64,000 nt of DNA, taken from contig JAOAQZ010000019.1 in the NCBI GenBank assembly GCA_025210795.1, forward strand, positions 124,001 through 188,000, read 5' to 3'. Of the stretch, positions 568-12,774 are shown piece by piece (the stretch's first letter is position 1; each line of letters begins with the position of its first letter). The notes under the pieces are model-generated. The model searched no databases. It had not been told where the DNA came from and was given only the letters and a program-made list of their open reading frames with translations. The position numbers were made by a program, and so were the translations under genes. The stretch is from Cohaesibacter sp. Its GTDB lineage: Bacteria; Pseudomonadota; Alphaproteobacteria; Rhizobiales; Cohaesibacteraceae.

Positions 568-2013
568 CTATCCAAAAATCTTGAAGAAGGAAATTGTGCG
601 CCGAATCATCGGTTTCTTCGGCAAGTCGCCATAATAGCTGATCGCTGCGCGGCGTCCAATCTCGGACAGGGTTGGATAGGGAGAAATATAGCCGGTAATG
701 GCTTTGACATTCATTTTCTGCGAGACGATCAACGACCACATATTGATCATTTCGCCTGCATTATGCCCCACAATAGAGGCCCCCAAAATGGTGCCTTTCT
801 TGTCTGTCACGATCTTGATCTGACCAGCGGTTTTGCGTTCGGCCTGGGCGCGATCATTCTCACCATAGGGCCAGCGCAGAACGCGGATCTTGCGATGCTT
901 TTTCTGGGCTTGCTCTTCGGTCATGCCCACATGAGCCATTTCCGGATCTGTATAGGTAACCCACGGAATGATATTGCGATTTTCGCGCGCTGACATATGG
1001 AACAGGACAGAGCGAATCACCAAACCGGCATGATAGCCTGCCACATGGGTGAATTGCAGGCCGCCCGTGACATCACCAATGGCAAAGACCTTGCGGTTGG
1101 TGGTTTTGAGCGTATCCTTGACCTTGATACCGCGTGCGTCATAGGCGATCTTGGCTTTTTCCAAGTCAAGCCCGTCGACATTGGGAGCGCGACCGGCGGC
1201 AACCATTAGATGGGTGGCCTCGACCACTTCCTCTTCCCCGTCTCCAGCATCAAGAATGATCCGCGCGCCATGCTTATGGGCTTCATCACCCTGTTCAACC
1301 CGCAGGATCTTGACGCCTTCGCGCAAGTTCACCCCGTCACGCCGCACCTGATCAATCACCACGGCGGTCATTTCCGGATCATCTTTTGCCAGGACGTTAA
1401 AGGCTTCAAGCACGGTTACTTCCGCGCCGAGCCGTTGCTGGGCTTGTGCCAATTCCATGCCGATGGGGCCGCCACCGATGATAACCAGCTTTTGCGGCTG
1501 TTCGGTGAGATCGAAAATCGTCTCATTGGTGAGATAGTCAACATCGGCCAAACCTTCGATGGGCAGTTTGGCAGCAGACGAGCCGGTGGAGATGACAAAA
1601 TAGCGGGCGCTGATTTCCGTCTTACCATCGGCGGTGACAACGGTTTTTGGATCCTTGAATTTGCCTGCCTGCTGGATAACCTGAACGCCCAGCCCTTCAA
1701 ATCGCTCGACCGAATCATTGGGCTCAATCGCTGCAATGACCGAATGGATGTGATCATGCACCGCCTGATAATTAACCTCGGGCTCACCTGCTGTAACACC
1801 AAACTTCACTGCATCACGGATCGACTGCACCTGCTTGCTGGCAGCAATCATCGCCTTTGAGGGAACACAGCCATAATTGAGGCAATCTCCGCCCATTTTG
1901 CCCTTTTCCAAAAGCACAACTTTTTCGCCGAAGGCAGCAGCGGCGGCTGCAACTGAAAGGCCGCCAGAGCCGGCGCCAATCACGCAAATATCTGCTTTAA
2001 TCTGTTCGGTCAT
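568..2013 (-). CDS. FAD-dependent pyridine nucleotide-disulfide oxidoreductase (mercuric reductase / dihydrolipoamide dehydrogenase-like)
   Basis: 481 aa. The N-terminal dinucleotide fold (ICVIGAGSGG) is followed by the redox-active disulfide GGDCLNYGCVPSKA (Cys44 and Cys49), a second NAD(P)-binding fold (VIIGGGPIGMELA), the FAD motif FAIGDVTGG, and a C-terminal dimerisation domain with HNAGEMI in place of the classical active-site HxHPT. It is therefore a flavin disulfide reductase but probably neither a true lipoamide dehydrogenase nor a standard MerA: there is no N-terminal HMA domain and no C-terminal vicinal Cys pair. It follows TVP38 and DUF547 genes on the same strand, so it may act on a membrane or periplasmic redox substrate. 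The fold is certain; the substrate is unknown. Confidence 0.85.
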   Translation of the reverse strand: MTEQIKADICVIGAGSGGLSVAAAAAAFGEKVVLLEKGKMGGDCLNYGCVPSKAMIAASKQVQSIRDAVKFGVTAGEPEVNYQAVHDHIHSVIAAIEPNDSVERFEGLGVQVIQQAGKFKDPKTVVTADGKTEISARYFVISTGSSAAKLPIEGLADVDYLTNETIFDLTEQPQKLVIIGGGPIGMELAQAQQRLGAEVTVLEAFNVLAKDDPEMTAVVIDQVRRDGVNLREGVKILRVEQGDEAHKHGARIILDAGDGEEEVVEATHLMVAAGRAPNVDGLDLEKAKIAYDARGIKVKDTLKTTNRKVFAIGDVTGGLQFTHVAGYHAGLVIRSVLFHMSARENRNIIPWVTYTDPEMAHVGMTEEQAQKKHRKIRVLRWPYGENDRAQAERKTAGQIKIVTDKKGTILGASIVGHNAGEMINMWSLIVSQKMNVKAITGYISPYPTLSEIGRRAAISYYGDLPKKPMIRRTISFFKIFG

Positions 2014-2114
2014 GATGCAATTTCCTTGTTTGGGCTATGGTCAGATCATGCCCATCTTTGAGATCATCTCAATTAGAATTGTGGGAAAATCCCCCAGGAT
2101 TTCCAGATTTGTGA

Positions 2115-2144
2115 GGCTCCGGCCCTTTTTGCGGGGCCAGAGCC
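2115..2144 (-). other. Hairpin between TVP38 gene and oxidoreductase gene
   Basis: Eleven-base arms at 2115-2125 and 2134-2144 pair with one mismatch just after the TVP38 stop codon. No clear U-run follows on the minus strand, so it may protect a 3' end or weakly attenuate transcription into the oxidoreductase gene rather than terminate it. Confidence 0.35.
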
Positions 2145-2150
2145 GCGCTT

Positions 2151-2972
2151 TTAGTTGCTAGCGGCCTTGCGCTTTTTCCATGCTTTGAGCACCGGCGGAA
2201 TGAGGGAGACCACTCCAAGGGCAACAAAAGCTGCAATCAATTCAGGCGTGATAATCGCCGAGGTATCAAGCGTGATGGCACAGTCAGGATTGGTGCTGCA
2301 TTCAGGGTTGGCCGCCCGCTGGGCCTCAATGATGCTATCCAGCCCCGAGCCGATAAAGGCAAAGGCAAAGGTGCCGGGGAGAATGCCGATGAGAGTGGCG
2401 AAGAAATAGGATTGCAGACGCACATTGAACAAAGCCGGTGCCAGATTGACCAGCCAGAACGGAAAGGCAGGGACAAGGCGCAGGAACAGAAGATAATTGA
2501 AAGCATCTTCCCGAAAGCCTTCGGCAAAGCGATCAATAAAACCTCCGGCCTTGGAGCGCAGAGCCTCGCCAAACGAGCTGCGGGCTGCAAGAAAAATCAA
2601 AGAGGCGCCAATGGTTGCCGAGAGAACGGTTGCGGCACCACCTACGGCCCAGCCAAACAGAAAACCACCACCAATTGTTAGAAAGGATGCGCCGGGGAAA
2701 GAGAGCGCGACAGCAGTAATATAGGCAAGGGCGAACCCGCCAACCATCAAGACATAATTCTCTTCAACATAGCCGCGCAGCACTTCGCGGTTTTTTACCA
2801 GCGATTCAAGGCTGAGATATTGATGCCAGCCTTGGGAGAAGCCGACAATCATCAAGCTTGCGATGATGGCCAGAGGGGCCCATTTCTTGGCAAGGGCCAA
2901 AGGCGAGGAAGTTTTCTCCATATCCGTTACGGCCTCCATGCTGTTGGTTACATTGGCGTGTTGTTTGTTCAT
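2151..2972 (-). CDS. TVP38/TMEM64 (SNARE-associated, DedA-superfamily) membrane protein
   Basis: 273 aa from the chosen ATG at 2972, which follows the upstream TGA by 4 bases and has GGTGA upstream; the frame stays open to 3011, but that would overlap the DUF547 gene more deeply. After a charged N-terminus there are about five to six hydrophobic segments, with the family core including GGGFLFGWAVGG and a later LRLVPAFPFWLVNLAPAL (re-entrant loop with the conserved Arg). The C-terminus is basic. DedA/TVP38 proteins are inner-membrane proteins implicated in lipid flipping or transport. Its place between DUF547 and a flavoprotein disulfide reductase suggests one functional unit, probably one operon. 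Confidence 0.87.
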   Translation of the reverse strand: MNKQHANVTNSMEAVTDMEKTSSPLALAKKWAPLAIIASLMIVGFSQGWHQYLSLESLVKNREVLRGYVEENYVLMVGGFALAYITAVALSFPGASFLTIGGGFLFGWAVGGAATVLSATIGASLIFLAARSSFGEALRSKAGGFIDRFAEGFREDAFNYLLFLRLVPAFPFWLVNLAPALFNVRLQSYFFATLIGILPGTFAFAFIGSGLDSIIEAQRAANPECSTNPDCAITLDTSAIITPELIAAFVALGVVSLIPPVLKAWKKRKAASN

Positions 2973-2976
2973 AGCT

Positions 2977-3879
2977 TCACCGGGCATCATTGAGCGACCA
3001 GTCATAAGCATAGCCCCTGATCGATTGTTGTTTGTTTAACGCTTGGGCAAGGGCAGGCTTTGCATATCGCTGCCAATGGCGAATCAGTTGCGCCTTTGAG
3101 CCGAAATCGCTGTCATACCAGTCATAAATCTTGGAGGCTTTTATGCCTGACTTGGTGGCAGCAACCCCGCGCGGATGATTGATATAGGCGCGCGCTGCGG
3201 CATCAAGCTGCGCATTGATCTTTTTGCCGCTATAGGCGGTCTTCATCAGGTTCGGGCAGCCGATTGAGGCGCAGTTAAAACCATAATGAAGACGCGGATC
3301 CTTCCAGGTTTTGCGGGCAATCTGATGTTCGACATCATCGAGGGAGAGTTTTTTGCCGCCCACGGTAAGAAGCTTCTTCTTCCACGGACCTGAGCCAAAG
3401 AAACCGCCACCAAGCTTGATATCGCGAATGGATTTGACCGGATAATGATCCAAGATCACATCCAGCGTCTTGGCATTATAAAGATTGATCCAGTAAGCCT
3501 TGGCCGCTTGGGAGGAAAGGCTTCTTACATTGACCTTTTGCATGCGATCCAAATAGGCCTCAAGAGCGCCTTTTTTGGCTTTAAGGGCTCTATATCTCAC
3601 CCGATTGACCCCATCGCTTCCCTTTACGACATAACTGGCAAGCAGATTGGAGAAATCGGAATGATCAAGACTGCCGGTCCCCTTGGGCGCAAAGGATGAG
3701 GCAAGGCTTTGCGCCCTTGCCTCTTGCGGCATCATAAAAAAGGCTAGCAATAAAAGAGCCAGCCCGGAACCGCTTGCTACGGCTTTGGCACGGCCTGTGC
3801 CCTCGTCAATTGTGGTTTGGCTTTCCAACATTGCGTGCCCCATATCCTTTGTTCTAACGCCTGTGCCTGTGTGCAGCAA
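2977..3879 (-). CDS. DUF547 domain-containing exported protein
   Basis: 300 aa in the longest form, which begins at TTG (3879); ATGs at residues 13 and 17 are plausible alternatives. The hydrophobic stretch LALLLLAFFMMPQEARAQS is a signal peptide with an ARA|Q-type cleavage site. The mature part shows DUF547 signatures: AYWINLYNAKTLDVIL, LSLDDVEHQIAR, DPRLHYGFNCASIGCPNL. The Cys in GFNCASIGCP and the conserved His suggest a papain-like or redox fold, but DUF547 activity is unestablished. First gene of the DUF547-TVP38-oxidoreductase cluster; its stop lies 4 bases before the TVP38 start. Confidence 0.85.
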   Translation of the reverse strand: MLHTGTGVRTKDMGHAMLESQTTIDEGTGRAKAVASGSGLALLLLAFFMMPQEARAQSLASSFAPKGTGSLDHSDFSNLLASYVVKGSDGVNRVRYRALKAKKGALEAYLDRMQKVNVRSLSSQAAKAYWINLYNAKTLDVILDHYPVKSIRDIKLGGGFFGSGPWKKKLLTVGGKKLSLDDVEHQIARKTWKDPRLHYGFNCASIGCPNLMKTAYSGKKINAQLDAAARAYINHPRGVAATKSGIKASKIYDWYDSDFGSKAQLIRHWQRYAKPALAQALNKQQSIRGYAYDWSLNDAR

Positions 3880-4301
3880 ACTGCGTGTTTCCTGCCTTGC
3901 ATGCCTTTCTATATAGCGGTAAAAATCGGCTTTGTGGGGCGTCTCACTGTCATTTGATTGCCGCTCAAGGGCGCCTCACGCATATGTGAGAGCCGGTAAT
4001 TTTCATCTCACCACGATGACAGCAGACGCGATCTTGCCGTGAAGATGAAATGGCTATTTTCAGCCCTTTTGGGTTAACTTGAGGGGATTTTAACCCTTGA
4101 TTAAGCAAAAGAGGGGGGATGGGGATAGAAATATCTTCAATTGTCGCGCTTTGCAGATTGACTCATCCGCCACATCTCCGTATAAGCCGAGCCAAGTGTA
4201 TCAGGATCGCTCGTAGCGTCTCTTTTAGGGGCGCTCTTTTTTACCGGTCTTGATGGGATTTGAAAAAATTCAAATAAGGGGCCGCGAAAGCGGAAAAGCC
4301 C
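3880..4301 (+). promoter_or_regulatory. Divergent intergenic region with rpmH leader
   Basis: This 422-base gap separates the minus-strand DUF547 gene from rpmH. At 4071-4096 there is an inverted repeat gggttaa/ttaaccc. At 4090-4104 TTAA-N7-TTAA resembles the CtrA box (TTAA-N7-TTAAC) of alphaproteobacteria. At 4215-4242 a 9-bp stem (two G-U pairs, 3-base loop) is followed by six T residues, which looks like an intrinsic terminator. At 4282-4293 ccgc-gaaa-gcgg forms a GNRA-capped mini-hairpin just before the rpmH ribosome-binding sequence (ggaaaa). No protein gene is convincing here. Confidence 0.5.
4215..4242 (+). terminator. Terminator-like hairpin upstream of rpmH
   Basis: Arms 4215-4223 and 4227-4235 form a 9-bp stem with two G-U pairs and a TTT loop, followed by CTTTTTT. 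The nearest upstream gene runs the other way, so the hairpin would either attenuate rpmH transcription about 60 bases before its ATG or end a short transcript started within the intergenic region. Confidence 0.5.
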
Positions 4302-4436
4302 ATGAAACGGACTTATCAGCCGAGCCGACTGGTGCGCAAGCGCCGCCACGGCTTCCGGTCACGCATGGCAACCAAGAATGGCCGTCAGGTCTTGGCACGC
4401 CGTCGGGCAAAAGGGCGCAAGCGCCTTTCAGCTTAA
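4302..4436 (+). CDS. rpmH: 50S ribosomal protein L34
   Basis: 44 aa, starting [20 protein letters not shown] and ending KGRKRLSA. Very basic and of standard L34 length; it is a component of the large ribosomal subunit. It begins the conserved rpmH-rnpA-yidC cluster. The ATG at 4302 has ggaaaa upstream. Its leader contains a terminator-like hairpin and a small GNRA hairpin (4215-4293) that could control the operon. Confidence 0.97.
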
Positions 4437-4448
4437 GACTATCACATC

Positions 4449-4486
4449 AACCGCCAGCCTTCTTTTTTCGGGTTCGGCGGTTTTTG
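4449..4486 (+). terminator. Hairpin with T-run between rpmH and rnpA
   Basis: aaccgcc (4449-4455) pairs with ggcggtt (4476-4482), followed by a run of T. The loop is long (20 bases), so it may be a partial terminator that makes rpmH mRNA more abundant than rnpA mRNA. Confidence 0.5.
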
Positions 4487-4635
4487 TGTGTCTGGGGCCT
4501 GCCGGTGCAGCTTTCTTTTGGCCGATTTTGCGATCAGGGGAAAGGCTTTGCGCCAGGATGAATTCAGGCACGTTACTGGTGAGATCGCCTCACCATAGCA
4601 AGGCCTGACAAGGCCCCCAATAAGCGAGCGAGATC

Positions 4636-5007
4636 ATGCTTCGTTTGAAAAAACGTGCTGAATTTTTAGCCGCGGCGAGAGGTGCACGCATCCCTCGCCG
4701 CGGTTTCGTACTTCAAGCCAAACGCCGACAGCCTGATGACGAGAAAGAGCCCCGGATCGGCTTTACCGTCACCAAGAAGGTTGGCAATGCTGTGGTTCGA
4801 AACCGAATCAAACGCCGCTTGCGAGAGCTGGCACGCCTGCATGGTGCGGATGTCATGGCAAAGGGCCATGATTATGTGCTTATCGGCCGGCGCGCTGCCT
4901 TGCATATGGAATTTGAGCGATTGAAAGACGATTTTTTTGGGGCGCTTGCGCAATCTCGCAAGAAAGCACACCAGACAAAACGCTCGGCTCAATCACGACA
5001 TGGTTGA
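4636..5007 (+). CDS. rnpA: Ribonuclease P protein component
   Basis: 123 aa. It binds the catalytic RNase P RNA and helps process the 5' ends of pre-tRNAs. The family signature is seen in RIGFTVTKKVGNAVVRNRIK followed by RRLRELAR, the RNR motif region that contacts RNA, with a basic N-terminus (MLRLKKRAEFLAAARGARIP). Length is typical. Located 199 bases after rpmH and 111 bases before yidC. I see no yidD gene between rnpA and yidC. Confidence 0.96.
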   Translation: MLRLKKRAEFLAAARGARIPRRGFVLQAKRRQPDDEKEPRIGFTVTKKVGNAVVRNRIKRRLRELARLHGADVMAKGHDYVLIGRRAALHMEFERLKDDFFGALAQSRKKAHQTKRSAQSRHG

Positions 5008-5118
5008 TCTGATATAGATTTTTACGCATGGTGCGACTGACTTATGCAAAGCGCATATTATATAGAGCCTATGCTTTTCGCCCCAGCGGGCGGTATGACA
5101 ACGGGATGAAGACAGCTG

Positions 5119-6933
5119 ATGGAAAATAATCGCAATTTCTTCCTTGCTATCGCACTATCCTTTTTAGTGCTTCTGGGTTGGCAATATTTTGTTGCCGGTC
5201 CACAAATGGCAAAAGAAAAGGCTCGTCAGGAACAGCTGGCAGCCGAGAATGCAGCAAAAACCGGCGCGGGGGGAAGCGCTTCTACCGTACCAACCCCAAG
5301 CGCGGGCAATGCCAGCGTTCCGGGCACTGCGACACCGGCCATTCCTGGCACCGAAGCTCCCCAGAGCAGCGAAGCCATTTTGGCCAAGACAGCACGCATT
5401 GCTATCGAGACACCAAAATTGTCCGGCTCCATTAACCTGACCGGCGCCCGTCTTGATGATCTGCATTTGCGCGACTATCACGAAGAGCTGTCCAAAGAGA
5501 GCCCGACCATCACCTTGCTGGCCCCCAGTGGCTCAAACAATGCCTATTATGCCGAATTTGGCTGGGTTGATGGCGCTGGCACCACCAAGCTGCCAACCGC
5601 CCAAACCGTCTGGTCCGCCAATGACGGTGCAAAGCTGACTTTGGAAACACCTCTTGTTCTGACATGGAACAATGGCGAAGGCCTCACTTTTACCCGCACC
5701 ATCTCGGTTGACAGCAATTATCTGTTCCGGGTGGAGCAAAAGGTCGAGAATGCTTCTGACGCCGCTGTCGCTCTTTATCCTTATGGTCTGGTCTCTCGCC
5801 ATGGCGAGCCGCAAACCTCCGGTCTTTATATCCTGCATGAAGGCCTGATTGGTGTTGCTGGTGAAGAGGGTCTTCATGAGGTAGATTACAGCGATATTGC
5901 TGAAGAGCGCCTCAATACCCCGCCAAAATCCAGTGAAGGCTGGATCGGTATTACCGATAAATATTGGGCAACCGCTCTTATTCCGCCACAAGGCCAGAGC
6001 TTCCAGCCAACTTTCCGCTATTCCGATAAAACAGGGAAAGCGGTCTTCCAGTCCGATTATCTGGGCGATGCCGTGGGCGTTGCTGCTGGCAGCACAATGA
6101 GCTACCAGACCAGCCTGTTTGCCGGTGCCAAGGAAGTTGCGGTTCTCTCAGCTGTTCAGGCCGAGACCAATGCCAAGAATTTTGATCTTCTGATCGACTG
6201 GGGCTGGTTCTACTTCATCACCAAGCCGATGTTTACCGCCATTGACTTCCTTTTTGATCTGGTTGGCAACTTTGGTGTTGCGATCCTGCTGATCACAGTT
6301 CTGGTCAAGTTGCTCTTCTTCCCACTGGCAAACAAGTCTTATGCTTCCATGTCGAAGATGAAGATGCTGCAGCCAAAAATGGAAGAGATCAAAAACAAGT
6401 TTGGCGATGACAAGCAGGCGCAGCAGAAAGCCATTATGGAGCTGTATCGCGATGAGAAGGTCAATCCGCTTGCGGGCTGTCTGCCTATTCTCATCCAGAT
6501 CCCGGTTTTCTTCTCGCTCTATAAAGTGCTGTTCATCACCATCGAAATGCGTCATGCGCCTTTCTTTGGCTGGATTCAGGATTTGTCCGCGCCGGATCCC
6601 ACCAACCTGTTCACCTTGTTTGGTCTGATCCCGTGGGATGCTCCAAGCTTCCTGATCCTCGGTATTTGGCCACTGATCATGGGCGTGACCATGTTCATCC
6701 AGATGAAGTTGAACCCGGCTCCGACAGATCCGACCCAGGCGATGATCTTCAACTGGATGCCTGTCATCTTCACCTTCATGCTGGCCACATTCCCGGCGGG
6801 TCTGGTGATCTATTGGGCATGGAACAACACCCTGTCGATCTTGCAGCAGGCTGCCATTATGAGAAAACATGGCGTGCCGATCGAGATCTTCAAAAATATC
6901 AAAGATACCTTCAAAAAGAAAACTGCATCCTAG
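5119..6933 (+). CDS. yidC: Membrane protein insertase YidC
   Basis: 604 aa. It inserts and folds inner-membrane proteins, alone or with SecYEG. Layout: N-terminal membrane anchor (FFLAIALSFLVLLGWQYF), an Ala/Pro/Thr-rich linker, a large periplasmic domain (about residues 70-360), then the 60KD_IMP insertase core with five hydrophobic segments. Core features include a membrane-embedded Arg-containing region (NPLAGCLPILIQIPVFFSLY) and a final FAGLVIYW-like segment (FPAGLVIYWAWNN). The C-terminus is short and basic. Length is normal for Gram-negative YidC. A strong terminator follows at 6961. Confidence 0.97.
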   Translation: MENNRNFFLAIALSFLVLLGWQYFVAGPQMAKEKARQEQLAAENAAKTGAGGSASTVPTPSAGNASVPGTATPAIPGTEAPQSSEAILAKTARIAIETPKLSGSINLTGARLDDLHLRDYHEELSKESPTITLLAPSGSNNAYYAEFGWVDGAGTTKLPTAQTVWSANDGAKLTLETPLVLTWNNGEGLTFTRTISVDSNYLFRVEQKVENASDAAVALYPYGLVSRHGEPQTSGLYILHEGLIGVAGEEGLHEVDYSDIAEERLNTPPKSSEGWIGITDKYWATALIPPQGQSFQPTFRYSDKTGKAVFQSDYLGDAVGVAAGSTMSYQTSLFAGAKEVAVLSAVQAETNAKNFDLLIDWGWFYFITKPMFTAIDFLFDLVGNFGVAILLITVLVKLLFFPLANKSYASMSKMKMLQPKMEEIKNKFGDDKQAQQKAIMELYRDEKVNPLAGCLPILIQIPVFFSLYKVLFITIEMRHAPFFGWIQDLSAPDPTNLFTLFGLIPWDAPSFLILGIWPLIMGVTMFIQMKLNPAPTDPTQAMIFNWMPVIFTFMLATFPAGLVIYWAWNNTLSILQQAAIMRKHGVPIEIFKNIKDTFKKKTAS

Positions 6934-6960
6934 GACTTTTCTTTAAGGATCGACGTCTAA

Positions 6961-6992
6961 AAGGCGGCTTGATTGTTCAAGCCGCCTTTTTT
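6961..6992 (+). terminator. Intrinsic terminator after yidC
   Basis: Perfect 12-base arms aaggcggcttga (6961-6972) and tcaagccgcctt (6977-6988) with a 4-base loop, followed by a T-run. It ends the rpmH-rnpA-yidC unit and separates it from the acetyltransferase gene. Confidence 0.9.
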
Positions 6993-7226
6993 GTTGCCTT
7001 TTTGCAGCATAGCAAGGGCAATCGGCGCTGATTTTTGCAAAGCATTTGGTCAGGCCCCCGTTCGGTGGTAGCGTTTGCTATCTTTTCTTCTCGCCAGGTC
7101 ACAAGGACAGGTTCGATGACCTACTGACCGAACTGCAAGCAATTCCCGATATCTTCTCGCGATCCTCAAGTTCGGGATCGGGACTGCTTATTTCTATGCC
7201 TTTTTCATTTAAAGCAGGTCAGTTTC

Positions 7227-7916
7227 ATGCCTTCTCACGATCTTTCATCAGGCCAGTTTGGCCCTGATCCTATGAGCCCGTTTCCAATTGCCGGCCACAG
7301 GCGCGTTGGTTTCCTCAAACCTTTGATCACAAGTCCGCTCATCCAAGTGGGAGACTATAGCTATTATGACGATCCGGACGGGCCGGAGCATTTCCAAGAG
7401 CGCAATGTGCTCTATCATTTTGATTTTATCGGAGATCGGCTCATTATCGGGAAATTTTGCGCCATCGCGACAGGTGCCCGTTTCATCATGAACGGGGCCA
7501 ATCATGATATGCGCGGCTTCAGCACCTATCCATTCGGTGTTATGGGTGGTGGCTGGCAGGACGGCTTTGATCTTGGCGGATATAAAGTGCAAAGCCGCGG
7601 CGACACCATTGTTGGCGATGATGTCTGGATTGGCCGGGGGGCAATCATCTTGCCCGGTGTTACCATCGGCTCTGGCGCTATTGTTGCAGCCGGTGCTGTG
7701 GTCAGTCGTGATGTACCAGCTTATGGCGTGGTTGCGGGCAATCCCGCAGAGCTTGTTCGCATGCGCTTTAGCGATGACATCATCGACCGCCTGATGGCGC
7801 TGAGCTGGTGGGACTGGCCGCCAGAGCTGATCGGCAAGCACCGATCTGCCATTCAGGGCGCCGATATTGAAGCACTGGAGAAAGCATCATACGAGCTTTC
7901 TAATCAGATTGATTAG
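7227..7916 (+). CDS. CatB/Vat-type hexapeptide-repeat O-acetyltransferase
   Basis: 229 aa. A left-handed beta-helix acyltransferase of the xenobiotic acetyltransferase type, which transfers acetyl from acetyl-CoA. Signs: [18 protein letters not shown], holding the NH catalytic-His motif of the CatB/VatD group, and hexapeptide repeats such as [20 protein letters not shown] and [16 protein letters not shown], then AGNPA. ATG 7227 has gcagg upstream; an in-frame ATG at 7272 (MSPFP) is possible. It lies between yidC and engB, genes often adjacent in this order, so it is probably a later insertion. Antibiotic resistance cannot be claimed: many homologues modify other small molecules. Confidence 0.86.
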
Positions 7917-8001
7917 ATAAATCTTGCAGGTGGGGCGTAATCCGGCTAACCAAAGCCAATATCTTACCTCCCATCTGCAAGCATCATACTGGATATCGTC
8001 C

Positions 8002-9755: not shown

Positions 9756-9784
9756 AAAAGGCTGCTTTAGGGCAGCCTTTTTTG
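9756..9784 (+). terminator. Intrinsic terminator after argB
   Basis: Arms aaaaggctgc (9756-9765) and gcagcctttt (9772-9781) pair perfectly around a 6-base loop and run into a T tract. It also faces the convergent peroxidase gene; its A-rich left flank could serve the opposite strand. Confidence 0.88.
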
Positions 9785-9799
9785 TTTCATTACGCTTTA

Positions 9800-11119
9800 T
9801 CAAAAAGTGAGGCTTGGTGCCTCTCCTGACAGGCTTTTGAGGAAGGCTTCCAGATCTTCGATATCCTGACTGGTGAGCGCTTGATCACGCAGGATTGTCA
9901 GACGTCTCTGACTTTTCTTGCCACTTATAGCTACCGAAGAAATAGCCAAGTCATCAACCGGATCATCACTGATGATTTTGCCCAGTTGCGAGACCGCCAT
10001 AATCCGGATGGCTTCCTTTAGGTCCTTTACCGCTCCATTGTGAAAATAAGGACCTGTTTGTGCAATATTGCGCAGGCTTGGCACCCGCCAGACAGACGCT
10101 TTGCCTTCAACAAGCAGATCATATTTTTTGACATAGCTGTTGTCAGCAAATACCGGGAAGGAGCGATAGGCTCCGATATTTTTGATGCTTCCCGCAGCTG
10201 AGAATATTGGATCAATATGGCAGCTGCGGCATCCGACTTCCTGAAATAATGCCATGCCACGCAATTGTTGGGCGCTGAGAGCCGTATCATCGCCTGCGAT
10301 AAATCGATCATAAGGGGCATTGGGTGTGATAAGCAGCCGCTCATAAGACGCAATCGCTTTTGCAATCCTGTCGATAGTGATTGAGGCTTTTTGTCCAAAT
10401 GCCTTTTCAAACATTGGTGCATAATCGGGATTGGCTTTGACGCGCAACTCCACTGCCTCCCAGTCAGGCATTGCCATCTCTACCGGATTGATAAAGGGCT
10501 GTTTGGCCTGATGTTCCAAACTCGTTGCCCGCCCATCCCAAAAGAGCCGCGTCAGAAAAGCTGCATTAAAAACCGTTGGAGCACTCACGCTTCCCTTTTG
10601 GCCATCCACCCCGGTGGAGACCGGTGCATTGTCGTCCCCTCCCGTCTCCAGATTATGGCAGGACGCACAAGAGATCGTGTGATCAATGGAGAGATTTTTG
10701 TCAAAGAACAGTTTCTTGCCCAGTCTGGCTTTGGCCAGCTTTTGCGGATTGTCGGCCGGTGGTTTGACGGTTTGAGGCAGTGCCTGCCAGGTACTCCAAT
10801 TGCCTGATTTGGCCAGTTGGGATGGCAGGGTTATAATTCTTGCCAAGTCGGGTTGCGAGAATTCTGGCCCCTCTCTTTGTCTCTGCACCAATTTTGTTGG
10901 TGCCAGATCCGGTTTCGCAACATCCAGATAGAGAATCACTCCGGCCTTGATGGAGAGGGCAAAAACACCCAAACCCAGGCCAAAGGCCAGAAACAGTCGC
11001 CCCTGACCTCCCAATCTTACTCTTTGTGCCAGCTCCTTTGAGACAAGCGCAAGGGCTAGCATTCCCAGCCCGAGGGCCGAGAAGAGGATCATCATTATTT
11101 CTGTATTGGGGTCATCCAT
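9800..11119 (-). CDS. Membrane-anchored di-haem cytochrome c peroxidase (CcpA/MauG family)
   Basis: 439 aa from ATG 11119, preceded by gggagag; the frame is open to 11188 without a ribosome-binding site. Two N-terminal hydrophobic helices (about 8-27 and 42-65) are followed by a periplasmic domain with two c-type haem sites, CASCH (151-155) and CRSCH (297-301). Family sequences such as LGKKLFFD, SCASCHN, SAPTVFNAAF and LRNIAQTGPYFHNG support bacterial di-haem peroxidase, which reduces H2O2 with cytochrome electrons; MauG-type oxidases share the fold. Most family members carry a cleaved signal peptide, so the two membrane helices are notable. Transcribed after the truncated hemoglobin gene, 102 bases away, probably together. 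Confidence 0.88.
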   Translation of the reverse strand: MDDPNTEIMMILFSALGLGMLALALVSKELAQRVRLGGQGRLFLAFGLGLGVFALSIKAGVILYLDVAKPDLAPTKLVQRQREGPEFSQPDLARIITLPSQLAKSGNWSTWQALPQTVKPPADNPQKLAKARLGKKLFFDKNLSIDHTISCASCHNLETGGDDNAPVSTGVDGQKGSVSAPTVFNAAFLTRLFWDGRATSLEHQAKQPFINPVEMAMPDWEAVELRVKANPDYAPMFEKAFGQKASITIDRIAKAIASYERLLITPNAPYDRFIAGDDTALSAQQLRGMALFQEVGCRSCHIDPIFSAAGSIKNIGAYRSFPVFADNSYVKKYDLLVEGKASVWRVPSLRNIAQTGPYFHNGAVKDLKEAIRIMAVSQLGKIISDDPVDDLAISSVAISGKKSQRRLTILRDQALTSQDIEDLEAFLKSLSGEAPSLTF

Positions 11120-11221
11120 TGTCTCTCTCCCAAAGCTCAGGAAAGATGCCCTGCCAACCCTATAAGGAAGTGCGTCATGATCGGCCACGGGGAGAGGGCC
11201 GAAAGCTGGCAGGGCGCGGGT

Positions 11222-11698
11222 TTATTTCACTTCAACGATGTCTTTGCGGGTGCTTTCAAAGAATGCCAGCACATCAGCACGCTCTTTTTGCGGCACATTG
11301 AACTTATCGAGCGTGGCCTTGAGATGGGTGATCAGGCGATCCCAATCTTCTCCATCAATCCGCATACCCACATGTGCCAGCTTCATATCGCGGCCGGTAT
11401 AATAACGTGGGCCGCCAGCCTGATTGGCAATGAAATCAATGATTAGTTGCACCTCGCGGTCAATCCCGTCTTTGCCCCGATGTGCCCAGAAACGCCCCAT
11501 TTTCGGGTCAGCCATCAGGCGGGCTGCTACATCATGGGTGACGGCGGTGATGGCATCATAGCCACCAAGGCGCTCGTAAAGGGTTGGCTTTTCCGCTGCC
11601 ATACCAGCCGATGGCATGGCAAGGAGCGGCATTGCCAGACAGGCTGTCAGAGCAATGATTTTGAGAGGATTGGTCCGCGATACAGATTTGATCAACAT
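11222..11698 (-). CDS. Exported group I-like truncated hemoglobin
   Basis: 158 aa, ATG 11698 with ggag upstream. The N-terminus (basic residues, then IIALTACLAMPLLAMPSAGMA) is an export signal, probably cleaved near residue 34; an LTAC sequence ending at Cys20 is a weak lipobox alternative. The mature part matches truncated globins: LYERLGGYDAI, the CD1 aromatic in GRFWAHRG, and the proximal haem His109 in MKLAHVGM. The B10 tyrosine usual in group I proteins seems to be missing from THDVAARL. Such globins bind O2, NO or peroxide and are usually cytoplasmic; a signal sequence beside a periplasmic haem peroxidase suggests oxidant or NO chemistry outside the cytoplasm. Confidence 0.85.
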   Translation of the reverse strand: MLIKSVSRTNPLKIIALTACLAMPLLAMPSAGMAAEKPTLYERLGGYDAITAVTHDVAARLMADPKMGRFWAHRGKDGIDREVQLIIDFIANQAGGPRYYTGRDMKLAHVGMRIDGEDWDRLITHLKATLDKFNVPQKERADVLAFFESTRKDIVEVK

Positions 11699-11832
11699 TG
11701 ATCTACTCCAGTTTTGGCTGGCACCTCTTTTTCATGATGAGATGCCCGGTTTGGTCTTGCCAAAAAACTAGAGAAAAATGTATTATATTAGAAATTATAG
11801 TTTTGAATTTTATCTATAGAAAAAATAAATAA
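11699..11832. promoter_or_regulatory. AT-rich divergent promoter, hemoglobin/peroxidase versus lysR
   Basis: The 134-base region is strongly AT-rich. Minus-strand TATAAT (complement of 11794-11799) could be the -10 box for the hemoglobin gene. An interrupted repeat tatag-N13-ctata (11796-11818) and a palindrome tctataga (11813-11820) have the size of LysR-type binding sites. A LysR regulator commonly binds between itself and a divergent target. Confidence 0.45.
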
Positions 11833-12774
11833 ATGAAACTGCGCCAACTTCAATTTGTTAAAAGTGTTGCGGAAACCGGCTCCTTTTCCAAAGCGGCTGA
11901 GCAATGCTGCGCAACCCAGCCAACGCTCTCCAATGCCATTGCCCAGCTGGAAGAAGAGCTTGGCGGAAAGCTTTTTGATCGCACCACACGCAAGGTGGGG
12001 CTTACCGCCTTTGGCGCTCACATTCTTGGCCGCATTGAGGAGGTTCTGAGGGCCGAGCAGGACGTTTTGCAAGCTGCCAAAGCCTATCATGACCCCGATC
12101 ACAAATTGCTGCGTATTGGCTTTTCCCCGCTTGTTGATATGGGGCTTCTCAATCATATCTTGCAGCCATTTTGCCATAAATATCAGGATATTGAGTTTTT
12201 CTTTAAAGAATGCCTGCTTGATGACTTATCACAGCGCCTGCGCGATGACGTGATTGATATTGCCATCATTCCTGCCAGCATGCTTGAGACGGGATATGAA
12301 CATAGATCCTTCTACAAAGATCCGCTTTTCTATCTTGCAAAGGATGGCACTAAATTGCCTCAACCCGGCAGCTCTTTGAAGCTTGCCGATTTGCCCTCTG
12401 ATCCCGTCATTATGACCGGTGGGGGATGCGGTTTAAATGGCGCGCTGGAGCGTTTGTTTCAAAATGAGGGTGCAACGCTTACGCCTTATCGAGGGCAGGC
12501 AATGTCCTATCCGGTTATTGAAGAATGGGCAGATCTTGGTATTGGCGCGGGTATTTTGCCGCAAGCCAAACTGTCCCAATCACGAGGGATCACATATCCC
12601 TTGGCTTTGAAGGATGGATCAGAGGCTTCGTTTGAATTCAGCTGGGTCTGGCCGCACAATGCGAAGTTACGCCCGCATATTGCGCTCTTTACCGATTATA
12701 TCGAGACCATTGTTCCCTCACTCATTACAGGAAGCGATGGAATTGTGCCAATGCGGGCTTCACAGTCATCGTAA
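11833..12774 (+). CDS. LysR family transcriptional regulator
   Basis: 313 aa. N-terminal winged HTH (MKLRQLQFVKSVAETGSFSK, then QPTLSNAIAQLEEELGGKLF) and a C-terminal periplasmic-binding-like sensor domain from about residue 92. In the sensor domain Cys199 lies in TGGGCGLNGALERLF, the same place as the peroxidatic Cys of OxyR, but the resolving Cys is replaced by Leu208. A Cys in this region is not rare in LysR proteins, so redox sensing is only a possibility. Divergent from the hemoglobin/peroxidase pair, its probable target. The stop codon lies 2 bases from the end of convergent mutM. Confidence 0.88.
   Translation: MKLRQLQFVKSVAETGSFSKAAEQCCATQPTLSNAIAQLEEELGGKLFDRTTRKVGLTAFGAHILGRIEEVLRAEQDVLQAAKAYHDPDHKLLRIGFSPLVDMGLLNHILQPFCHKYQDIEFFFKECLLDDLSQRLRDDVIDIAIIPASMLETGYEHRSFYKDPLFYLAKDGTKLPQPGSSLKLADLPSDPVIMTGGGCGLNGALERLFQNEGATLTPYRGQAMSYPVIEEWADLGIGAGILPQAKLSQSRGITYPLALKDGSEASFEFSWVWPHNAKLRPHIALFTDYIETIVPSLITGSDGIVPMRASQSS

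Follow-up and report, generated by a model that had tools for sequence, protein, structure and literature searches.

Work on truncated hemoglobins (trHbs) mostly treats them as proteins of the cytoplasm, and it is rarely known which partners they have in the cell. Among membrane-bound peroxidases, YhjA of E. coli is described as a periplasm-facing, quinol-dependent enzyme that requires no reductive activation and is under the control of OxyR and FNR (PMC10301912; PMC8115020); it has a single helix and carries an additional third haem at its N-terminus (PMC10301912). Here, we analyze a locus of Cohaesibacter sp. in which a group I trHb with a predicted export signal is encoded ~100 bp ahead of a di-haem peroxidase on the minus strand, with a LysR-type regulator gene lying divergently on the plus strand (positions 9800-12774). 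The locus lies within a stretch of 64,000 nucleotides (assembly GCA_025210795.1, contig JAOAQZ010000019.1, positions 124,001 to 188,000), which will be referred to as the window.

A preliminary description made from the sequence alone had claimed a signal-bearing trHb, a two-helix di-haem peroxidase and a divergent LysR gene; all three were found in place, and the family profiles match (Table 1). Our best explanation, to which we give an even chance of being correct, is that they form a periplasmic module for peroxide reduction under common regulation, in which the globin acts as haem partner. In this module, LysR, predicted to sense an oxidant via Cys127 and Cys199, would switch on the predicted-exported globin and the predicted membrane-anchored peroxidase, both of which are predicted to face the periplasm. 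The peroxidase would reduce peroxide in this compartment, with either the quinol pool or a cytochrome c as its predicted electron source. The globin, whose pocket carries Glu at E7 but lacks Tyr at B10, may represent a ferric haem that reacts with peroxide or nitric oxide (NO) rather than an oxygen store, and might be re-reduced by the peroxidase's own electron supply. That the three genes constitute one regulon is well supported by the comparison of related loci. In the following, L numbers denote loci and G numbers genomes, G000 being the genome containing the window; its nearest named relative is Cohaesibacter gelatinilyticus, which has the same locus (L017) and the trHb of which shows 89% identity.

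Linkage and Distribution of the Three Genes

The loci compared comprised the best 80 of 343 trHb loci from a scan of named genomes plus four earlier ones, resulting in 84. The scan alignment consisted of 16 trHbs picked for signal-like N-termini from at least 120 homologs, and L022 and L019, which are the same contig, were counted once. By reading, 19 of the 84 loci encode an exported trHb. A LysR scoring above 200 bits was detected in 18 of these 19 and a peroxidase above 250 bits in 15, whereas each of them was found in 0 of the other 65, which include L021, L050 and L076 with export-like N-termini too and five loci with another LysR at 51-59 bits. Conserved linkage, on which the preliminary description had made its proposal depend, was thus clearly present. 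A mechanical hydropathy rule, drawn up after the loci had been seen and also passed by L021 and L050 (the latter probably with a wrong start), yielded 18/22 versus 0/62 for LysR (Fisher p 8e-15) and 15/22 versus 0/62 for the peroxidase (p 1e-11), with both p values overstating significance owing to kinship.

Exported-trHb loci without a full peroxidase were L023, where the gene is on another contig together with the element described below, L028 and L032, where it is cut by contig edges elsewhere, and L026. The latter retains trHb and a peroxidase remnant but has no LysR in the stretch, and another di-haem gene (150 bits) is located ~5 kb off. The order trHb-peroxidase with divergent LysR occurs in the window, L017, L018, L022, L030, L045, L046 and L069, the order LysR-trHb with divergent peroxidase in L024, L029, L034, L043, L049, L058 and L061, and in L027 and L028 the trHb gene is set apart. 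The three genes thus recur together in distantly related bacteria. Since the orders vary, frozen gene order cannot explain the linkage, which persists although genes have been rearranged and some have come apart, the operator-like element being kept.

Among 61 relatives, all three genes (LysR at E <1e-140, a full-length peroxidase and a trHb of the exported clade) were present in G000, G011, G031 and G033; weaker LysR matches were obtained in G019 and, as a second one, in G011. This patchy occurrence in 4 of 61 relatives would fit mere neighbours travelling together by horizontal transfer without joint function. The several gene orders and the retention of the element at unlinked copies argue against that explanation, which we find barely credible. 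Base composition was uninformative with respect to transfer, as the G+C content of the locus (0.50-0.52) is little different from that of the flanks (0.50-0.57).

Of 385 alphaproteobacterial genomes, only G000 yielded the full-length peroxidase; in eight others the match was confined to the soluble part (E 8e-90 at best). LysR was detected in G000 (2e-149), G243 (3e-112) and G074 (3e-82). The best trHb match was again in G000 (2e-76), and the next five (5e-60 to 5e-49) look cytosolic. Nine of the ten weakest trHb matches (L111-L116 and L118-L120; L117 is unclear) have lipoprotein-like or signal-like N-termini, and neither a peroxidase nor a module-type LysR was detected in their short flanks (1.5 kb or less). 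Export as a hallmark of the module was therefore dropped, as other alphaproteobacterial trHbs look exported without it.

A Shared Upstream Element

The upstream regions of the module loci share a conserved stretch near AGAAATTCTATTTATGAATNNNATTTA. A weight matrix was built from 13 LysR-upstream sites, excluding the window and L017, with a seed consensus read by eye from all loci. Its top match in the 64 kb is the predicted operator between LysR and trHb, which is of the T-N11-A type, a LysR-box form; the score was 15.9, compared to 1.5 for the next non-overlapping place and 9.9 for one mononucleotide shuffle. At 11 trHb genes that are not divergent from LysR, scores ranged from 31.9 to 8.1. 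Eight of these promoters, four belonging to close kin and two more to kin of each other, exceeded 15.5, the highest single-shuffle maximum, and L024, L026 and L032 remained below. In L027, separate sites were observed at LysR, at the peroxidase and at the trHb gene more than 2 kb away.

A pattern search of 14 module genomes allowing up to 3 mismatches yielded 27 sites versus 4 for the reversed pattern. Sites with 0-2 mismatches adjoin module genes in 16 of 19 cases, including the unlinked peroxidase of G454 (L145/L152), which retains the element with 1 mismatch on a separate contig. In the window genome only two further sites were found, both with 3 mismatches; the pattern had been written with the window in view, so that its 0-mismatch match there is no independent test. 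Co-regulation is indicated by the matrix finding the window site untrained, by the separate trHb promoters and by the unlinked G454 peroxidase.

Within the window, the consensus-match listing contains no minus-strand terminator-like hairpin in the gap that separates the trHb gene from the peroxidase gene. This, together with the hairpins after the peroxidase gene, makes a common two-gene transcript plausible. Promoter-like sites (9 found versus 2.7 expected) were not used as evidence.

Three further sites lie apart from the module genes. In the C. gelatinilyticus-like genome G011, a 2-mismatch site (L138, G011:C5:138179-138205) is located close to a gene resembling short-chain dehydrogenases and has no linkage to the module genes. 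L141 and L147 (G454:C73, 32261 and 32669), with 1 and 2 mismatches, are ~400 bp apart; no trHb, LysR or peroxidase was recognised within their 3-kb stretches, and they are possibly a module remnant.

The Di-Haem Peroxidase

The start of the peroxidase was set to the ATG shared with L017; the open reading frame list begins at a GTG (11188). Its closest PDB match is the cytochrome c peroxidase (CCP) of Pseudomonas aeruginosa (1eb7, E 3e-61, ~300 residues aligned). Like this enzyme and as expected of a bacterial CCP, the window protein possesses two CxxCH haem motifs, the catalytic Glu and the second-haem Met. Glu214, Gln204, Trp194 and Met374, the last presumably a haem ligand, are invariant in all 15 linked peroxidases of an alignment that leaves out L049. 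The L049 enzyme (Candidatus Thiodiazotropha endolucinida, 4244-5551) reads CILFH at the second CxxCH, representing either loss of the haem motif or a sequence error. Further di-haem peroxidase or MauG-type genes are present in the window genome outside the window (C42:271855-272703 and C41:197740-198792).

In contrast to P. aeruginosa CCP, the window enzyme is anchored by two predicted helices, and Val replaces the His of the CCP loop SVGHGWQKG, the remaining linked enzymes reading I or V. In the classical enzyme, this His is the ligand on the oxidised peroxidatic haem that is displaced on reductive activation. Since it is missing, as in YhjA, the enzyme should be active in the oxidised state, which is also reported for YhjA, and it is predicted to need no reductive activation. 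From the two helices and the basic loop that separates them, the catalytic domain is predicted to face the periplasm, and Lys58 is perhaps located at a quinol site. With only two CxxCH motifs in 439 residues, the protein lacks the third N-terminal haem of the quinol peroxidases YhjA, QPO and PerC.

The proposed role in peroxide reduction derives mainly from the parallel to YhjA, as the peroxidase is found under LysR or beside a Crp-type regulator. Both enzymes are predicted or reported to be membrane-anchored periplasmic members of the CCP family and to dispense with reductive activation, and LysR-type control is shared, complemented by Crp/Fnr-type neighbours in three loci related to ours. 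The window enzyme differs from YhjA in its two helices, its two haem motifs and its predicted exported globin partner. The periplasmic peroxide role suggested in the preliminary description is partly supported, namely for the peroxidase, where it fits the residues and the resemblance to YhjA.

The two best NCBIfam models for the peroxidase are MbnH (192 bits) and MauG (176 bits), and Trp71 and Trp119 are present in 20 of 20 exported globins. These findings might indicate that a MauG- or MbnH-like enzyme modifies the globin as its substrate, or else that the globin passes on haem. Nevertheless, neither model comes close to its cut-off (363 and 444, respectively), so that membership of either family was rejected, cytochrome c peroxidases outscore MauG by ~100 bits in the PDB comparison, and the CCP Met is retained. 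Moreover, the two Trp residues are conserved in 63 and 64 of the 64 other aligned globins, the cytosolic kin, next to which no such enzyme is encoded. The scores and the retained Met led us to reject a MauG-like modification, and we regard the globin as substrate or haem carrier as highly improbable.

The Predicted Exported Globin

Inspection by eye and hydropathy revealed a hydrophobic stretch and an Ala-rich end ahead of the globin domain of trHb, and the signal is likely cleaved after residue 35. The top PDB sequence matches are group I trHbs, and the AlphaFold2 model (mean pLDDT 79.4) is most similar to 8ugz (TM 0.91 by target length, 1.5 Å). The 2-over-2 globin fold and the proximal His F8 of group I are both present and are shared, like the GG motifs, with M. 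tuberculosis HbN and the trHbs of Tetrahymena pyriformis and Shewanella benthica. Unlike these proteins, the window trHb carries a predicted export signal, Glu at E7 and nonpolar residues at B10 and E11, and in comparison to T. pyriformis trHb it contains a three-residue CD insertion. Exported trHbs including that of the window form one clade, which also holds the long-branched L076 (support 100/99, in a tree of only 119 columns with the bootstrap not settled).

The pocket positions B10, E7, E11 and F8 were taken from an alignment to T. pyriformis trHb. The relatives aligned comprised 84 rows (20 exported and 64 others, the distant row L021 being omitted). Exported and cytosolic globins differ in this alignment at Lys132, Ala72 and Ile90. 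A PheB9-TyrB10 pair was not observed in any of them, as B10 is V, A, F, M, L or I and B9 is V, L or I. This pair is common in group I trHbs, though not strictly defining, and in a survey of 1107 trHbs TyrB10 occurred in 80% of cases and was linked to O2 stabilisation. As B10 is not Tyr, the pocket is predicted to hold O2 poorly, and the distal residues argue against a classical NO-dioxygenase pocket that stabilises O2 as in M. tuberculosis HbN.

Being open and devoid of Tyr, the same pocket would be expected to bind NO readily. A rival explanation is NO defence, in which the exported globin would clear NO or peroxynitrite at the membrane, with the di-haem protein mainly re-reducing the globin and peroxide reduction being secondary. 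Neighbours of some of the cytosolic kin point in this direction: L033 is located near the haem d1 gene NirJ, the cluster of which occurs in 6 of the 65 loci, and L083 near a NorB-type gene, the cluster of which (not checked member by member) also occurs in 6 of 65. In addition, a more distant cytosolic globin relative (L020) has a cytochrome P460 gene directly upstream (6874-7926). However, neither the NirJ nor the NorB cluster is among the 25 clusters shown for the exported loci, each covering at least 3 loci, and the peroxidase has retained its catalytic residues. Furthermore, NO dioxygenation is said to need high O2 stabilisation (PMC4720485), which is unexpected from this pocket. Taken together, we consider NO defence unlikely.

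Weak O2 hold, as predicted from the distal residues, should also entail fast autoxidation. This would suit a split periplasmic oxidase that scavenges oxygen for life at low oxygen, in which the globin turns O2 into peroxide and the peroxidase turns the peroxide into water with quinol electrons. A precedent exists in cable bacteria, where pentahaem cytochromes fused to trHb likewise place a periplasmic trHb beside c-type haems; the fused multihaem protein was proposed as an alternative terminal oxidase (PMC11976967). There the partner is a fused multihaem cytochrome, whereas here it is encoded as a peroxidase in an operon-like arrangement, and no globin-peroxidase fusion was observed among the homologs listed (120 each), no dedicated fusion search having been made. 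A globin that makes peroxide would moreover be risky. A split oxidase appears very unlikely to us.

For the peroxide-reducing module, a peroxide-reactive globin is not without precedent, since peroxidase activity is reported for a trHb of another group from Roseobacter denitrificans.

The LysR Regulator

The regulator contains the HTH_1 and LysR substrate domains of LysR-type proteins, and in its predicted fold BenM and OxyR are in the top structure rows. OxyR (4x6g) was the best PDB profile match at a limit of E 1e-15; a limit of 1e-30 returned none. Resemblance to OxyR further includes an invariant Cys in the same loop and the type of upstream element. Nevertheless, membership of OxyR was rejected, as the NCBIfam OxyR score was 80.9 compared to a cut-off of 329 and the cysteine position differs. 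The OxyR cysteine pair is presumably C199/C208; equating the window Cys199 with OxyR Cys199 was dropped, since it aligns one residue before the OxyR Cys and the second OxyR Cys is unmatched. Cys127 is an additional invariant residue of the module LysR that distinguishes it from OxyR. Both cysteines are kept in the LysR relative of L103, and one of them in that of L104, which has no trHb.

Table 1: Positions of genes and sequence features in the window.
Feature	Position	Strand	Remarks
Di-haem cytochrome c peroxidase, 439 aa	9800..11119	-	CCP_MauG 198.8 bits
Predicted transmembrane helix 1 (residues ~8-27)	about 11039-11098	-	Hydropathy
Predicted transmembrane helix 2 (residues ~42-63)	about 10931-10996	-	Hydropathy; basic loop separates helices
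Lys58 in helix 2	10946-10948	-	Invariant 15/15 aligned peroxidases
Haem motif 1 CASCH, residues 151-155	10655..10669	-	Cys pair and His invariant 15/15
Haem motif 2 CRSCH, residues 297-301	10217..10231	-	Cys pair and His invariant 15/15
Met374	9998..10000	-	Aligns with Met of IMGNAQLG in P. aeruginosa CCP; invariant 15/15
Group I truncated hemoglobin, 158 aa	11222..11698	-	Bac_globin PF01152 49.5 bits (cut-off 21)
Predicted Sec signal of trHb, residues 1-35	11594-11698	-	By eye and hydropathy
Proximal haem ligand His109 (F8)	11372..11374	-	His in 84/84 aligned trHbs
Distal Glu82 (E7)	11453..11455	-	Glu in 83/84 aligned trHbs
Ala58 (B10)	11525-11527	-	Never Tyr across 84 aligned trHbs
Ile86 (E11)	11441-11443	-	I, V or L in 84/84 aligned trHbs
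Predicted LysR operator, ATTATAGTTTTGAAT core, T-N11-A type	11785..11816	+	Weight matrix, LysR/trHb intergenic region
LysR-type regulator, 313 aa	11833..12774	+	PF00126 (HTH_1) and PF03466 (LysR_substrate)
Cys127	12211..12213	+	Invariant 19/19 module LysR (18/18 aligned, plus L046, left out of the alignment)
Cys199 in GGGCGLN	12427..12429	+	Invariant 19/19 module LysR (18/18 aligned, plus L046)
Terminator-like hairpins downstream of peroxidase	9756..9823 (9809-9823 on -, 9756-9781 on +)	-	Consensus matches only

Apparently Exchangeable Parts of the Proposed Module

Related loci indicate which parts may be exchangeable. In L195 (Motiliproteus, 3233-6080), a close peroxidase relative with one hydrophobic stretch follows an exported isochorismatase-like gene, accompanied by a Crp-type regulator, and in L103 (G243, 1513-3302) a module-type LysR adjoins an exported isochorismatase-like hydrolase in the absence of trHb. 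Similar Crp-type regulators adjoin an exported trHb (L076:571-1239), a peroxidase (L194:3140-3892) and the hydrolase with the peroxidase (L195:5433-6080). Judging from these arrangements, globin and regulator seem to be replaceable around the peroxidase. The three Crp-type regulators share a Cys (CILALNC-like). Genes of an HbpS-like cluster, confirmed by Pfam for two of them, occur in 7 of the 19 exported-trHb loci; in Streptomyces, the HbpS family has been linked to haem and to peroxide stress.

Several findings weigh against the peroxide-reducing module. The globin appears replaceable, as the L103 LysR and the L195 peroxidase adjoin the isochorismatase-like gene instead, and the neighbours of the cytosolic globin kin, NirJ and the NorB-type gene, point to NO rather than peroxide. 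L076 falls within the exported clade, yet its locus of 8.9 kb contains no LysR and no peroxidase gene, and its genome, a metagenome-assembled genome of unstated completeness, shows no peroxidase at E 1e-60. Conversely, G046, one of the 61 relatives, possesses a full two-helix peroxidase but no trHb or LysR. The window element is among the weaker ones (15.9 versus up to 45.6, while one shuffle of the AT-rich locus L026 already reached 15.5), and the regulator, which scores below the OxyR cut-off, has its Cys199 one residue off and no counterpart of OxyR's second Cys.

Conclusions

In the titles and abstract openings returned by searches of the open-access literature, no description of this gene set was found. 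The protein families are all known and public records name the single genes; the three-gene set itself appears to be undescribed and is regarded here as a variant of membrane peroxidase systems. A bolder interpretation, which we hold to be quite unlikely, sees a periplasmic O2/peroxide sink: an exported globin with a peroxidase-like Glu pocket would meet O2, NO or peroxide, a quinol-fed two-helix di-haem enzyme would complete the reduction to water, and a dedicated thiol-sensing LysR would act through one operator in the genome.

From comparative evidence, an exported globin can here be assigned a proposed enzyme partner and compartment along with a proposed regulator and its operator, and its function thereby becomes directly testable. 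In addition, membrane-anchored peroxidases are shown to be more varied than the quinol peroxidases with three haems. If the split sink and the exchange of globin for hydrolase and of LysR for Crp-type regulators were true, the locus would belong to a class of periplasmic redox systems that is modular and has so far gone unrecognised.

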